From Haloarcula mannanilytica (lineage in GTDB: Archaea > Halobacteriota > Halobacteria > Halobacteriales > Haloarculaceae), in assembly GCF_005406125.1 (NCBI RefSeq), contig NZ_BIXZ01000001.1:186001-250000 (forward strand): a stretch of 64,000 nucleotides of DNA, in the 5' to 3' direction. The notes under the pieces were generated by a model. That model did not search any database, was not told where the DNA came from, and saw only the letters and a list, made by a program, of their open reading frames with translations. Made by a program: the position numbers and the translations under genes. This document shows, one piece after another, positions 57,535-63,078 of the stretch (positions within the stretch are counted from its first letter, which is position 1; each line of letters starts with the position of its first letter).

Positions 57535-57691
57535 CGGGGCAGTACTCGACGTTTTTTGGCTGGTGCGTGAGAGCCTGAGAGACATCGCAGTCGAAAGAAA
57601 CTGAGCCCTTGTTATCTCGGTCGTCGTATCGAACAATTATCGCTGTGATAGCATTACACGACCGAATAGCAGCATTACGGGAGGATACAGT

Positions 57692-57699
57692 TTTATAAG
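57692..57699 (+). promoter_or_regulatory. TATA box of the ABC binding-protein gene
   Basis: TTTATAAG at 57692-57699 lies 23-30 bases before the ATG at 57722, the spacing that gives a leaderless mRNA beginning at the start codon. It supports the ATG start over the GTG at 57710, which lies within the expected untranscribed spacer. The remaining gap to sod (57535-57691) shows no gene. Confidence 0.6.
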
Positions 57700-57721: not shown

Positions 57722-59089
57722 ATGAGTCGTGATTCCAGTCGACGAACGTTCTTGAAGCGCACTGGGGCGGTAAGCACTGTCGGTCTGCTCGGTGGATTGG
57801 CAGGCTGTTCGACTGAACAGACCGGCGGCGATGGTGGAGATGGCGGCGACGGCGGGATGACCGGAACCGGAACGGATGCCGGTGGCGACGGCGGTTCGGA
57901 TTCACCGGACATTCTGATGGTTGTCGGCTACCCCCAGAGCGGTGTGCAACTGTTCAAGGACTTCTACGCCGACTATGGCGACGACGCCGCCGATATTCTC
58001 GTCACCGACGGCTTGCAGGACGGCGAACTGCCGAGTAACGTCGGCGACGACATGTCGAACGTCCGCGGTACGGCCCCCTCGGCGGCCGGCCCCGGCGTCG
58101 ATACGTTCACCGAGCAGTTCACCTCCGAGTTCGACTACGAGGAGGCCGGTGTGTTCACATCGCAGGCCTACGACGCGACGGCGGTCCAGATCCTCGCGAA
58201 CGTGATGGCCGGCGAAAACGACGGGCAGGCCATCCGGGACCACATGCGCGTCGTCGCCAACCCGGGCGGCGACACGTACGGCCCCTCTGACCTGCCGGCG
58301 GCTGTCGAGGCGGCCGCCACGGGCGAGAACATCCAGTACGAAGGAGCGTCCAGTTCCGTCAACTTCGACGAGAACGGGGACATGGCCTCGGCGCAGTACC
58401 AGGTCTTTGGCTTCCAGGACGGCGGTGGCGTCGAAACGCTCAACACTGTCGACTTCAGCGCTGGGGACGACATCCCACAGCCGGAACCGAGCGGCTCCGG
58501 GAGCGACGCCGGTCGAACGATCAGCTTTGGCGTCCTGATGCCCGAGACCGGCGACCTCGGCTCGCTCGGCAGGCCCATCCGCGATGGCGCGTTGCTCCCG
58601 GCCCTGCAACTCGAAGACCAGGTCGACTTCGAGTTCGATTACCAGGTGGGTGACACACAGACCCAGGCACAGGCGGGCATCGACGCGGCCAACTCCCTCG
58701 TCAGCGATGGATATCCGTCGATTACCGGCGCGGCCAGTTCCGAGACGACGATACAGGTCGCCCGTAACGTGCTTATCGACAGCGGCGTCGTCGGCTGTTC
58801 GCCGGCCTCTACGTCGCCGACGATCACCGACCTCGAAGACGACGACTACATCTTCCGTACCCCGCCGAGTGACGCCTTGCAGGGACAGGTCCTGGCACAG
58901 GTCGGCGTGGACGAACTCGAAGCCGAGACCGCATCGACGCTGTACGTGAACAACAGCTACGGCCAGGCGCTACAGGAGGCGTTCGCCGAGGCGTTTGAGG
59001 CGGAAGGCGGGACCGTCGTCAATCAGGTCGGGTTCGAGCAACAGCAGTCATCGTACACGTCCGAGATCAACAGCGCGATGAACCAGTAA
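57722..59089 (+). CDS. Branched-chain-amino-acid-type ABC substrate-binding lipoprotein, circularly permuted
   Basis: The 455-residue protein starts MSRDSSRRTFLKRTGAVSTV, a Tat lipoprotein signal with lipobox LAGC (Cys29) and a GGDGG linker to residue 60. It is a type 1 periplasmic-binding fold like LivJ, but the halves are in swapped order. Residues 61-245 (SPDILMVVGYPQSGVQLFKD to VETLNTVDF) correspond to the normal C-terminal half of LivJ-like proteins, with FDENGDMASAQYQVFGF. After a Ser/Gly/Pro linker (246-263), residues 264-455 (GRTISFGVLMPETGDLGSLG, TGAASSETTIQVARNVLI, LYVNNSYGQALQEAFAEAFE, YTSEINSAMNQ) are the normal N-terminal half. The stop falls at the usual junction. It is convergent with livHMGF, whose binding protein it should be. 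Confidence 0.85.
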   Translation: MSRDSSRRTFLKRTGAVSTVGLLGGLAGCSTEQTGGDGGDGGDGGMTGTGTDAGGDGGSDSPDILMVVGYPQSGVQLFKDFYADYGDDAADILVTDGLQDGELPSNVGDDMSNVRGTAPSAAGPGVDTFTEQFTSEFDYEEAGVFTSQAYDATAVQILANVMAGENDGQAIRDHMRVVANPGGDTYGPSDLPAAVEAAATGENIQYEGASSSVNFDENGDMASAQYQVFGFQDGGGVETLNTVDFSAGDDIPQPEPSGSGSDAGRTISFGVLMPETGDLGSLGRPIRDGALLPALQLEDQVDFEFDYQVGDTQTQAQAGIDAANSLVSDGYPSITGAASSETTIQVARNVLIDSGVVGCSPASTSPTITDLEDDDYIFRTPPSDALQGQVLAQVGVDELEAETASTLYVNNSYGQALQEAFAEAFEAEGGTVVNQVGFEQQQSSYTSEINSAMNQ

Positions 59090-59107: not shown

Positions 59108-59863
59108 TTATCCGCCGAGGAAGTCCTGTCGCACCTGCTCGTCGTTAAGCAGGACCGACCCCTCGTCTTCGTAGCGGTTCTGACCCTGCACGAGCACGTA
59201 GCCACGGTCACACCGCCGGAGGGCTTCCTTTGCGTTTTGCTCCACCATCAGGACTGCCGTGCCGTCGTCGTTGATGCGGTCGATGCGGTCGAACATGTCC
59301 TCGACGAGGTCCGGGGCCAGACCGGCGGAGGGCTCATCAAGCAACAGCAGGTCCGGGTCAAGCATCAGCGCCCGGCCCATGGCGAGCATCTGCTGTTGGC
59401 CGCCCGACAGCGTCCCGGCGGACTGGTCGGACCGCTCACGGAGAATGGGGAACCGGTCATACACGTCCTCGATGCGGTCTTCCGGAACCTCGTCGAGGAT
59501 GTACGCGCCCATTTCGAGGTTCTCGCGCACGCTCAGCGACCCGAACACGTTGCCGGTCTGTGGGACGTAGCTGATCCCTTCGTAGATGATCTCGTCGGGG
59601 TTGCGCTGGCTGATGTCGGTCCCGTCGAAAACGACCTGCCCGCCCATGTACGTCGTCAGGCCGAAGACCGACTTCATCACGGTCGACTTGCCGGCCCCGT
59701 TCGGGCCGACGATGACGACGTACTCGCCGTCCGCAACGTCCATGTGGACATCGTTGAGGACCTGCAGGTCGCCGTAGCCGGCGTCGAGGTCCCGGATCGC
59801 CAGCAGGCGCTCGGACGGGTCGGGAAGCGAGACGGTCTCGGACTCCGTGGCGCGCTGGCTCAT
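59108..59863 (-). CDS. livF: Branched-chain amino acid-type ABC transporter ATP-binding protein LivF
   Basis: LivF is one of two ATPases of the hydrophobic amino acid transporter. The 251-residue protein starts MSQRATESETVSLPDPSERL. Walker A GPNGAGKS covers residues 53-60, the signature is GTLSGGQQQMLAMGRALML, Walker B DPDLLLLDEPSAGLAPDL, and the H-loop VLMVEQNAKEALRRC with Asn-Ala in place of His, as usual for LivF. The LivF-specific Tyr-Val-Pro (EGISYVPQTGNVFGSLSVRE) is present. It is the last gene of the livH-livM-livG-livF operon and its start overlaps livG by 4 nt. Confidence 0.94.
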   Translation of the reverse strand: MSQRATESETVSLPDPSERLLAIRDLDAGYGDLQVLNDVHMDVADGEYVVIVGPNGAGKSTVMKSVFGLTTYMGGQVVFDGTDISQRNPDEIIYEGISYVPQTGNVFGSLSVRENLEMGAYILDEVPEDRIEDVYDRFPILRERSDQSAGTLSGGQQQMLAMGRALMLDPDLLLLDEPSAGLAPDLVEDMFDRIDRINDDGTAVLMVEQNAKEALRRCDRGYVLVQGQNRYEDEGSVLLNDEQVRQDFLGG

Positions 59864-60690
59864 ACGTCTCCTCCCAGATACGCCTCCAGTACTCGCTCGT
59901 CGGACTTGATGGTCTCGGCGTCCCCTTCGGCGAGGACGCCCCCCTGGTGCATGACGATGATGTGTTCGCAGTTGTTCATGATGACATCCATATCGTGTTC
60001 GACGAGCAGGAATGTCAGCCCCTGCTCCCGGCGGAGTTCGTGGATCCGCTCCAGCAGTTTCTCTTCGAGCGTCGGATTGACACCGGCAAGCGGCTCGTCC
60101 AGCAGAATCATCTCGGGATCGGTCATCAGGACCCGCGCCATCTCAAGCAGTTTCCGCTGGCCGCCCGAGAGATTGCCGGCGTTCTCGTGGGCGAGGTGGT
60201 CGATTTCGAAGAACTCTAGCGTCTCCCACGCGCGGTCGCGCACGCCTTCCTCGTCTTTGATTACGTCGCCGCGAAGCCCCGGCGTCACGGAGCGAACGAC
60301 CGACTCACCGACCTGTCCGCCCGGCGCGAGCATGACGTTTTCCAGTACGGTCATATCGGACAGCTCGCGGGCGATCTGGAACGTCCGGACCAGGCCGCGG
60401 TTTGCGAGCGTGTACGGCGCGAGGCCGGTGATGTCCTGCCCGTCGAAGGTGACCTGACCGCCGGTCGGCTCGTGAATGCCCGTGATGCAGTTGAACGTTG
60501 TCGACTTGCCGGCCCCGTTCGGGCCGATGAGACCGGTGAGCGACCCCTCGGCCACGGAGAAGGTCGCGCCGTCGACCGCGACGACGCCGCCGAACTCCTT
60601 GCGGAGGCCGTCGACTTCGAGCAGCGGGGACTCGATGGCGTCGCTCGTGACGGCCGTCTCCTGTCGGTCTACAGTGTCGGACTCATTCAT
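59860..60690 (-). CDS. livG: Branched-chain amino acid-type ABC transporter ATP-binding protein LivG
   Basis: LivG is the second ATPase. I prefer ATG 60690 (MNESDTVDRQETAVTSDAIE) to a GTG three codons upstream. The LivG-type order is seen: Walker A LIGPNGAGKSTTFNCITG, the Q-loop region FQIARELSDMTVLENVMLAP, signature NLSGGQRKLLEMARVLMTDP, Walker B MILLDEPLAGVNPTLEEKL, and HDMDVIMNNCEHIIVMHQGG with the H-loop His. It has 276 residues. Its start overlaps livM by 8 nt and its end overlaps livF by 4 nt. Confidence 0.94.
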   Translation of the reverse strand: MNESDTVDRQETAVTSDAIESPLLEVDGLRKEFGGVVAVDGATFSVAEGSLTGLIGPNGAGKSTTFNCITGIHEPTGGQVTFDGQDITGLAPYTLANRGLVRTFQIARELSDMTVLENVMLAPGGQVGESVVRSVTPGLRGDVIKDEEGVRDRAWETLEFFEIDHLAHENAGNLSGGQRKLLEMARVLMTDPEMILLDEPLAGVNPTLEEKLLERIHELRREQGLTFLLVEHDMDVIMNNCEHIIVMHQGGVLAEGDAETIKSDERVLEAYLGGDV

Positions 60691-61966
60691 CGGTCTCACC
60701 TCCTGGGCCGGCCTGTGATCTGTCCAGGCTCACGCTTGTTGCCGGCTCGTTCCGGTGACCGAGCAGCCCGTCGGGCTGGTTCTGGATGATGTATATCAGC
60801 ACGACACCGATGAGGACGAACCGGAGCGTGCTGACGTTGCCGACAGTGTAAGCAAGCAGCGGGAGTGGATCGAGTGACGCGAGTCCAGCGACCGCGTCGA
60901 CGATATTTCCGGGCGCTCTCGTGCCACCAAAGGAGATGTTCTCGCCGAGCCGTGCCGGGAGGTAGAACAGCAGTCCCGAGAACGTCGCCGCGCCGAGGAT
61001 GCTCCCGGTGTTTGACCCGGAACCGCCGAGGATGAGCGCCGCGAACACGTAGAACGTGATCGTCGGTCTGAACTGCTGTGGGCTGACGTAGCCGGCCTGC
61101 CCGCGGAACAGGACGCCGGCCAGCCCCATCAGCGCACAGCCGATCATGAACGTCTTGATCTTGAATAGGCGCGTGTCCTTGCCAAGCGACTGGGTCACGG
61201 TCTCGTCCTCGCGAATCGCCTTCAGCACCCGACCGAACGGTGAGTTCGTGATGCGGGCGAGCACCCAGTAGCTCGCGCCCATCACCCCCAAAAGCATGAG
61301 TCCATACGTGAGGTTCGCCAGGTTCGGGCCGGAGACGCCGACGCTCTCGGCGGCGGTCACGAGCGGCTGTCCGATTCCGTTGATGAACCCCGACGCGACC
61401 TCATTCGCGGACTTGAACGAGATGCCGGTCGCGCCGCCGGTGCCGACCGGAAGCCCGAACAGCGAGAACTCGGCGAGCCCGTCCCAGTTGACGACGAGCC
61501 GGATGATCTCGGAGAACGCGACCGTCACGATAGCGAGGTAGTCGGCCTTCAGTCGGAGCGCCGGCAGCGCCGCGAGGCCGCCGATGATAGCGGCCATAAC
61601 CATCCCGCCGATGAGGCCGACCCACAGCGGGAGGCCGAGCCCCGGGACCGCGCCCGCGGCCGGATCAGTCGGTGCGGTGAGAATCGCCGTGGTGTACGCG
61701 CCGACGGCCATGAAGCCCGCGATGCCGATGTTGAACAGCCCGGTGTATCCCCACTGGAGGTTCAGCGCAAGCGCGAGGATGGCGTAGCCGCCCATGAGCA
61801 CGGTCACGCTGCCGATGAACCCGACGGCGAGGTTCGTCCACTCCGCGCCGCCGACAGCTATCGCCAGGAGGAGCATGATGGTCCAGATACCGGCGATGAA
61901 GCCGACCACCAGCCCAACATCCGGGAGCGCGTCGAGTCGGTCCCGGACGGAGTCGACGGCGCTCAT
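60683..61966 (-). CDS. livM: Branched-chain amino acid-type ABC transporter permease LivM
   Basis: LivM is one of two permease subunits. The 427-residue protein starts MSAVDSVRDRLDALPDVGLV and has about ten transmembrane helices; the permease pattern is LNLQWGYTGLFNIGIAGFMA near residue 65, ALRLKADYLAIVTVAFSEII near 135 and the coupling EAA-like loop GRVLKAIREDETVTQSLGKD near 245. Its C-terminal tail (NEPATSVSLDRSQAGPGGET) is cytoplasmic. It overlaps livH by 4 nt at its start and livG by 8 nt at its end. Confidence 0.94.
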   Translation of the reverse strand: MSAVDSVRDRLDALPDVGLVVGFIAGIWTIMLLLAIAVGGAEWTNLAVGFIGSVTVLMGGYAILALALNLQWGYTGLFNIGIAGFMAVGAYTTAILTAPTDPAAGAVPGLGLPLWVGLIGGMVMAAIIGGLAALPALRLKADYLAIVTVAFSEIIRLVVNWDGLAEFSLFGLPVGTGGATGISFKSANEVASGFINGIGQPLVTAAESVGVSGPNLANLTYGLMLLGVMGASYWVLARITNSPFGRVLKAIREDETVTQSLGKDTRLFKIKTFMIGCALMGLAGVLFRGQAGYVSPQQFRPTITFYVFAALILGGSGSNTGSILGAATFSGLLFYLPARLGENISFGGTRAPGNIVDAVAGLASLDPLPLLAYTVGNVSTLRFVLIGVVLIYIIQNQPDGLLGHRNEPATSVSLDRSQAGPGGETDE

Positions 61967-63078
61967 GCCGTCGACACCCCCCCGAAGATACCGGACGGGC
62001 GAAGTAGTAAGACGACGATTAGCACCAGGAACGCGGAGGCCCGCGTCAGTCCGGAGGGCAGCCAGATCAGGGCCAGGCTGTCGACCAGTCCGATGAGGAT
62101 GCCGCCGGCCATCGCCCCGTAAATCGAGCCGATGCCGCCGACGATGACGGCAGCGAAAATGAGCAGGAGGAGAATCCAGCCGAAGTTAAACGAGATTGTC
62201 CCGCTTTCCAGTACGAGCAGGTAGCCGCCGATGCCCGCCAGGCTGCCGCCCAGAATCCAGGTGAGCCGGATCACGCGCTCGGTCGGAATCCCGGTGACCC
62301 GCGCGAGGTCCTCGTTGTCGGCCATCGCCCGCATCGCCTTGCCGAGCTTTGTCCGCTGTAGCAGCAGGTGGACGCCGAGCATTAACAGGAGCGACACCAC
62401 CAGCAGCGTGATCTCGTTGTCGGTGACCGAAACCGTAGAGAGAACCGTCACCCGGAGCCCGCCGCTTGCGACCCCGCTGGTCTGTGTCCCGAAGAGGAAC
62501 GCGATGAGATAGCGCAGCGCGAGGGCGACGCCGATAGAGGCGATAAGCAAGGAGATGTTGTCCGCGTCGCGCATAGGGCGGTACGTGAGGCGGTCGACGA
62601 GTAGGACGACGCCGACCGACCCGACGCCGGCGACGACGAGGCCGAGAAGCACCGGCAGGAAGGTCGTCACGGTGCTCAACTGCCGGCCGGAGTTGAGCAT
62701 GAACAGTTCGGCGACCGGCGCGCCGGTCCCGAGGCCGGCGGCGATGTACGCGGCGACCCACCCCAGAAACGCCCCCGCAGTGACCGTGTCCCCGTGTGCG
62801 AAGTTAGCGAAATCGAGGATGCTGTACGTCATCGAGAGTCCGATGCCGGCCAGTCCCACGGCCAGTCCGACGAGCAGCCCGTCCACCACCATCGAGAGTA
62901 ATGAGCCGACCGTGAGCGAGCCACCCAGCAGTTTGGCTCCGAGGAAGAACACGGTTGTCCCGGCGAGCTTTGCGACCAGATCCAGCAGGAGGAAGCCGGC
63001 GACCGCGGCCACCGCCACTGCCCCCGGCCGGTCACCCAACACCACGCGACCGTCCTTTGCGAACGCAGCAATTCCCAT
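61963..63078 (-). CDS. livH: Branched-chain amino acid-type ABC transporter permease LivH
   Basis: LivH is the first gene of the operon (ATG 63078, MGIAAFAKDGRVVLGDRPGA), 371 residues, about nine helices. Family stretches are GLAGIGLSMTYSILDFANFA then HGDTVTAGAFLGW, DRLTYRPMRDADNISLLIAS with IGVALALRY, and the coupling loop KLGKAMRAMADNEDLARVTG. The C-terminus (LVLIVVLLLRPSGIFGG) is the usual ending. A TATA-like box lies about 30 nt before the start. Together with the permuted binding protein it forms a full importer for leucine-like or other amides; the substrate is not fixed by sequence. Confidence 0.94.
   Translation of the reverse strand: MGIAAFAKDGRVVLGDRPGAVAVAAVAGFLLLDLVAKLAGTTVFFLGAKLLGGSLTVGSLLSMVVDGLLVGLAVGLAGIGLSMTYSILDFANFAHGDTVTAGAFLGWVAAYIAAGLGTGAPVAELFMLNSGRQLSTVTTFLPVLLGLVVAGVGSVGVVLLVDRLTYRPMRDADNISLLIASIGVALALRYLIAFLFGTQTSGVASGGLRVTVLSTVSVTDNEITLLVVSLLLMLGVHLLLQRTKLGKAMRAMADNEDLARVTGIPTERVIRLTWILGGSLAGIGGYLLVLESGTISFNFGWILLLLIFAAVIVGGIGSIYGAMAGGILIGLVDSLALIWLPSGLTRASAFLVLIVVLLLRPSGIFGGVSTA

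Follow-up and report, generated by a model that had tools for sequence, protein, structure and literature searches.

The gene at 57722..59089 (+) of the window, which is the whole stretch of 64,000 nucleotides of Haloarcula mannanilytica DNA that was analysed, encodes a LivJ-type substrate-binding protein (SBP) of 455 aa in which the second part of the family (B) precedes the first part (A). This assignment is based on the open reading frame, the Pfam match, the orthologues and a swap test. We consider it quite probable that the product is a functional, circularly permuted type I (LivJ/HAAT) SBP of the adjacent LivHMGF importer, exported by Tat and lipid-anchored, and that it was permuted by recurrent events. 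Concerning the history of this one orthologous locus, we think it fairly likely that the canonical order (AB) gave way to the permuted order (BA) on three or more occasions, always at the same peptide bond, and that one BA lineage then changed twice to a third order, A2-B-linker-A1.

A TATA-like box (TTTTATAA, 57691..57698, +), read off the sequence, is located about 27 nt 5' of the ATG and would suit a leaderless haloarchaeal transcript. Residues 1-29 (57722..57808, +) contain a twin-arginine signal (RRTFLK) and the lipobox LAGC, based on the sequence, a weak TAT_signal match at residues 6-24 and conservation in orthologues. The twin Arg, hydrophobic stretch and lipobox Cys of haloarchaeal Tat lipoproteins are all present in MSRDSSRRTFLKRTGAVSTVGLLGGLAGC; among 12 SBP orthologues the RR is invariant and the lipobox Cys almost invariant. 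Tat export and lipidation are predicted accordingly from these signals. The following Gly/Asp-rich tether (residues 30-60, 57809..57901, +) is disordered in the structural model (pLDDT <50, model residues 1-30). Next are the B segment (residues 61-245, 57902..58456, +), which makes up the remaining half of lobe 2 and leads back into lobe 1, and a new linker (residues 246-263, 58457..58510, +), delimited by the relatives' junctions and by linker comparison, which bridges the old C- and N-termini. The A segment (residues 264-455, 58511..59086, +), assigned by positions 1-188 of PF13458 and by structure alignment, covers lobe 1 and the initial half of lobe 2 and ends at the cut, directly before the stop codon.

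In the native order the protein scores 83.7 bits against PF13458 (cut-off 31.7) in two stretches. PF13458 positions 1-188 fall on residues 266-454, and the end of the related PF01094 profile (columns 317-352 of 353) falls on residues 198-233. The canonical order of segments of the PF13458 family is therefore not found here: B precedes A, and the match is colinear only once the segments are swapped. The construct with A before B gives a single colinear PF13458 match (residues 3-309 to positions 1-310, 103.6 bits), and its PF01094 match covers 23-352 of 353. We regard the circular permutation as real because this construct yields one colinear family match, and the placing of residues 61-245 before residues 264-455 in the original prediction is thus confirmed. 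Two further details of that prediction, a stop codon exactly at the cut and a new linker of about 18 residues between the old termini, agree with the relatives: the C-terminus is found 0-3 residues past A in 72 of the 74 permuted ones, and their linkers have 16-24 residues. No residue separates A from B in 57 of the 58 canonical relatives.

The location of the cut was determined by comparison with LivK/LivJ structures. Model residues 237-427 (protein residues 265-455) align to residues 1-192 of these structures (Z 11-13); sequential aligners recover only the A half of the model, as expected of a permutation. From what is known of Leu/Ile/Val-binding proteins (LIV-BP), we take residue 192 of LivK/LivJ-type proteins to be inside lobe 2. 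A therefore takes in lobe 1 and continues halfway through lobe 2. This puts the cut within lobe 2, so the earlier idea that the segments are the two lobes, cut at their boundary, does not hold. The cut is found in a helix-to-strand loop of lobe 2, after the helix SYTSEINSAM, and all three natural starts of the family (A1, B and A2) directly precede a beta strand.

The SBP gene lies tail to tail with livFGMH (59108-63078, -). These are a livF-type ATPase (59108..59863, -), convergent with the SBP gene and the same neighbour in relatives, a livG-type ATPase (59860..60699, -), a livM-type permease (60683..61966, -) and a livH-type permease (61963..63078, -), identified from open reading frames and, for the last three, from the relatives' loci. 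LivHMGF-type importer genes are thus present beside the SBP gene, in relatives as well, and the original prediction was right to expect a transporter operon next door. Across families the same syntenic place holds either a BA or an AB gene, cut at the same bond. In most genomes searched the best match is either BA or AB, and few genomes hold both. In Haloquadratum walsbyi, the livJ genes of five of the seven liv clusters are expressed above average, the permuted ones not being specified (PMC5496347).

The permuted gene is conserved far beyond the window. A check of homologues in other genomes of the genus Haloarcula, which had been suggested earlier, shows it in colinear form in 28 of 32 (72-93% identity), and misassembly is therefore excluded. 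Colinear orthologues with 48-57% identity are found in well over 100 genomes, spread over nine or more families of the order; among the named hosts are Haloarcula, Halomicroarcula, Halorubrum, Haloferax, Haladaptatus, Halobellus, Haloquadratum, Natrialba and Natronorubrum. Outside the order, in a 393-genome sample of the phylum, only the canonical order is seen among the matches. Judged by these sequences the permutation is order-wide and not peculiar to Haloarcula, which had escaped the original prediction; the BA order seems to be recurrent as well, and this too had gone unremarked. Within the genus, dN/dS is 0.05-0.23 in both the A and B segments (dS mostly 0.4-1.0), a sign that the permuted SBP is under purifying selection. 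A misassembled or decayed gene is an extremely improbable reading: no support for either was found, the same order is carried by the 28 genus genomes and more than 100 others, and dN/dS is far below 1. Four same-genus genomes (G016, G021, G022 and the incomplete G028) are without the permuted gene, so it can be lost. In genome G187 an insertion of roughly 1.4 kb interrupts the gene (L144:6076-8874) near residue 350 of the protein.

The AF2 model of the mature permuted SBP, built from 48 sequences, has pLDDT 86 and pTM 0.82. A two-lobed type I fold is indicated by this pTM and by the alignment of the A part, the B part being assigned by sequence. The model of a canonical orthologue (pLDDT 37) was built from only four rows and was not used as a control. 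The top VIA match, 5er3, was rejected as a permuted relative: it spans both parts at rmsd 4.3 with 9% identity, and this alignment may be pseudo-symmetric, with the lobes swapped. Residues S340, T364, D96 and Y/F70 are kept in BA, AB and A2-B-A1 proteins. They align with ligand-site residues of the Leu/Ile/Val-binding proteins, whose roles are established for LIV-BP; D96 takes the place of the Glu that holds the amino group of the ligand. The earlier view that the protein is probably functional agrees with the purifying selection, the kept cleft residues and the confident two-lobed model, binding itself being predicted. Most likely it works as a Venus-flytrap SBP that supplies LivHMGF with an amino-acid-like ligand, both the ligand and the transport being predicted.

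A sensor or decoy binding protein, not a partner of the adjacent LivHMGF, is a quite unlikely reading of the same gene. It would suit the position of the SBP gene, convergent with the liv operon and not inside it, and the tandem BA pairs of some haloarchaea in which one copy is without the lipobox Cys. Against this, adjacency to liv genes is maintained across many families with either SBP order, the SBP and transporter trees agree, and no other SBP gene is present at the operon. The tandem pairs (L080, L081, L084 and L085; about 66-72% alike) are found beside livFGMH in one family, f17; the copy without the lipobox Cys keeps the twin Arg and may be a released, unanchored binding protein.

The number of AB to BA events was estimated from an SBP tree built with the segments set in canonical order. 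The permuted proteins form four groups: group I is large and contains many families, group II has two rows, group III contains Halorubrum and others, and group IV contains the genus of the window and one close genus. The tree of LivH+M+G+F, taken alone, shows the same grouping. On the SBP alone, a single BA clade is rejected (AU p 0.0096) and the joining of groups I and IV is not (AU p 0.34). On the combined SBP and LivHMGF data, the joining of I+III (AU p 0.00013), I+IV (0.018), III+IV (0.001) and III+II+IV (0.00025) is rejected and that of II+IV is kept (0.95). All these AU tests are post hoc to the recognition of the groups, use quick trees and assume a shared history of SBP and transporter. 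These rejections give a minimum of three AB to BA events, apparently independent and all at the same point. A single event may account for groups II and IV together. The linkers are similar within BA groups and dissimilar between them ('GPSADSGPGGxGR' in group I, 'NATAADPVGVDSF' in group III and 'PQPEPSGSGS' in group IV), except that groups II and IV share a GSDS-like ending.

These trees and linkers also bear on a simpler history, in which a single early AB to BA permutation in Halobacteriales was followed by several exact reversions or by canonical relatives taking the place of the SBP gene. The cut common to all BA proteins, the order-wide yet patchy distribution of BA and the canonical family members encoded elsewhere in these genomes would all suit it. 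We nevertheless consider it unlikely, given the AU tests against joining the BA groups, the canonical sisters of group III, which share its MVVGFPQSG traits and transporter branch, the linkers that differ between groups and the canonical outgroups. Counted by eye on the rooted combined tree, it also needs about nine losses, as opposed to about three gains under recurrent permutation.

The third order, A2-B-linker-A1, is found in five genomes, at L143:8393-9754 (-; genome G323), L231:6895-8334 (+), L232:6184-7671 (-), L233:6523-7944 (-) and L234:4752-6161 (-), and these forms come mostly from draft, incomplete genomes. A1 consists of the initial 37-42 residues of A; in the window the equivalent of this second cut (A1|A2, residues 302/303) is at 58627..58628 (+). 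The five proteins match one another over the full length in single stretches, down to 66% identity; they keep the group-I type of linker, the adjoining livFGMH and a seamless A|B junction. In the tree they fall at two separate places inside group I. The change from BA to A2-B-linker-A1 probably took place twice inside this one BA group; the data suit two further events, or else a fused A-B-linker-A-B ancestor that was trimmed in different ways. With a doubled ABAB query against 392 genomes of the order, all the starts among the matches listed lie close to the canonical or BA positions.

Under recurrent permutation, Halobacteriales would have undergone three or more independent AB to BA changes, each in the same helix-to-strand loop of lobe 2, and one BA group would have gone further, probably twice, to A2-B-linker-A1; permutations would arise at loops that precede beta strands. 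The likeliest route would be tandem duplication and fusion followed by trimming. Among the SBP loci examined there are no fused intermediates (ABA, BAB), no half-copy remnants were found near permuted SBP genes, and the only tandem-duplication remnants around SBP genes are the whole tandem BA pairs of one family; the duplication route is therefore one that we infer. The TDAGG/SDAGR-like linker endings, previously read as a trace of duplication, are not kept in orthologues. The permuted SBP would leave the cell via Tat, be tethered to the membrane by its lipidated Cys and flexible linker, and fold into the usual two-lobed shape; an amino-acid-like ligand would be bound in the cleft and then passed to the adjacent LivHMGF importer. 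Recurrent permutation, if true, would point to a shared driver, either selection on the exit of the lipid tether or a fused tandem intermediate that was repeatedly trimmed.

The protein shares with LivJ/LivK and other HAAT type I SBPs (PF13458; e.g. 3ipc, 4n0q, 3td9) the family, the two-lobed alpha/beta fold, the cleft residues and the LivHMGF partner, but its segment order is B-linker-A and its chain begins and ends inside lobe 2; the lipid tether therefore leaves from lobe 2. A functional type I SBP with a circular permutation is already known from Treponema pallidum, namely TpMglB-2 (Tp0684; 'Type Ic / Cluster Bc'). There, strands one to three of the N lobe have been transferred to the C-terminus, with the C lobe left as it was; the authors put forward the class 'Bc' and suggested an adaptation to tethering (PMC4990184). 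Both are naturally permuted type I SBPs with a lipid anchor (predicted here) and an ABC importer partner. However, TpMglB-2 belongs to the sugar (MglB) family, and the haloarchaeal cut is in the C lobe, so that the first three N-lobe strands are not at the C-terminus as in Cluster Bc / Type Ic. The A2-B-A1 relatives are cut in the N lobe, closer to the TpMglB-2 site but not at it. By analogy, the tether idea fits the haloarchaeal SBP too, as the BA order would shift the lipid anchor from lobe 1 to lobe 2.

Most natural circular permutations are ancient one-off events whose intermediates are not visible, and duplication is the standard model for how they arise (PMC3320104). Those of DNA methyltransferases and saposin/swaposin, which are reviewed in the same paper, likewise affect a gene family and have a proposed duplication route; their folds are unrelated, whereas here the same cut is repeated among orthologues at one locus. 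In the open-licence literature we found no earlier report of this permuted family or of recurrence at one orthologous locus. Colinear alignment, as used in domain annotation and homology modelling, captures only half of such permuted SBPs, which is a warning for both. The three chain orders occur among same-locus orthologues with 45-65% identity and are comparable residue by residue. Among the host genera, Haloferax has established genetics; with these orthologues, what drives a permutation and what it costs (anchor position, folding, binding) are therefore directly testable. Both orders are present in one genome, each beside its own liv genes, in Halomicrococcus gelatinilyticus CP100465 (L215, L222) and in G173 (L083, L248); each genome holds a natural BA and canonical pair for comparison.
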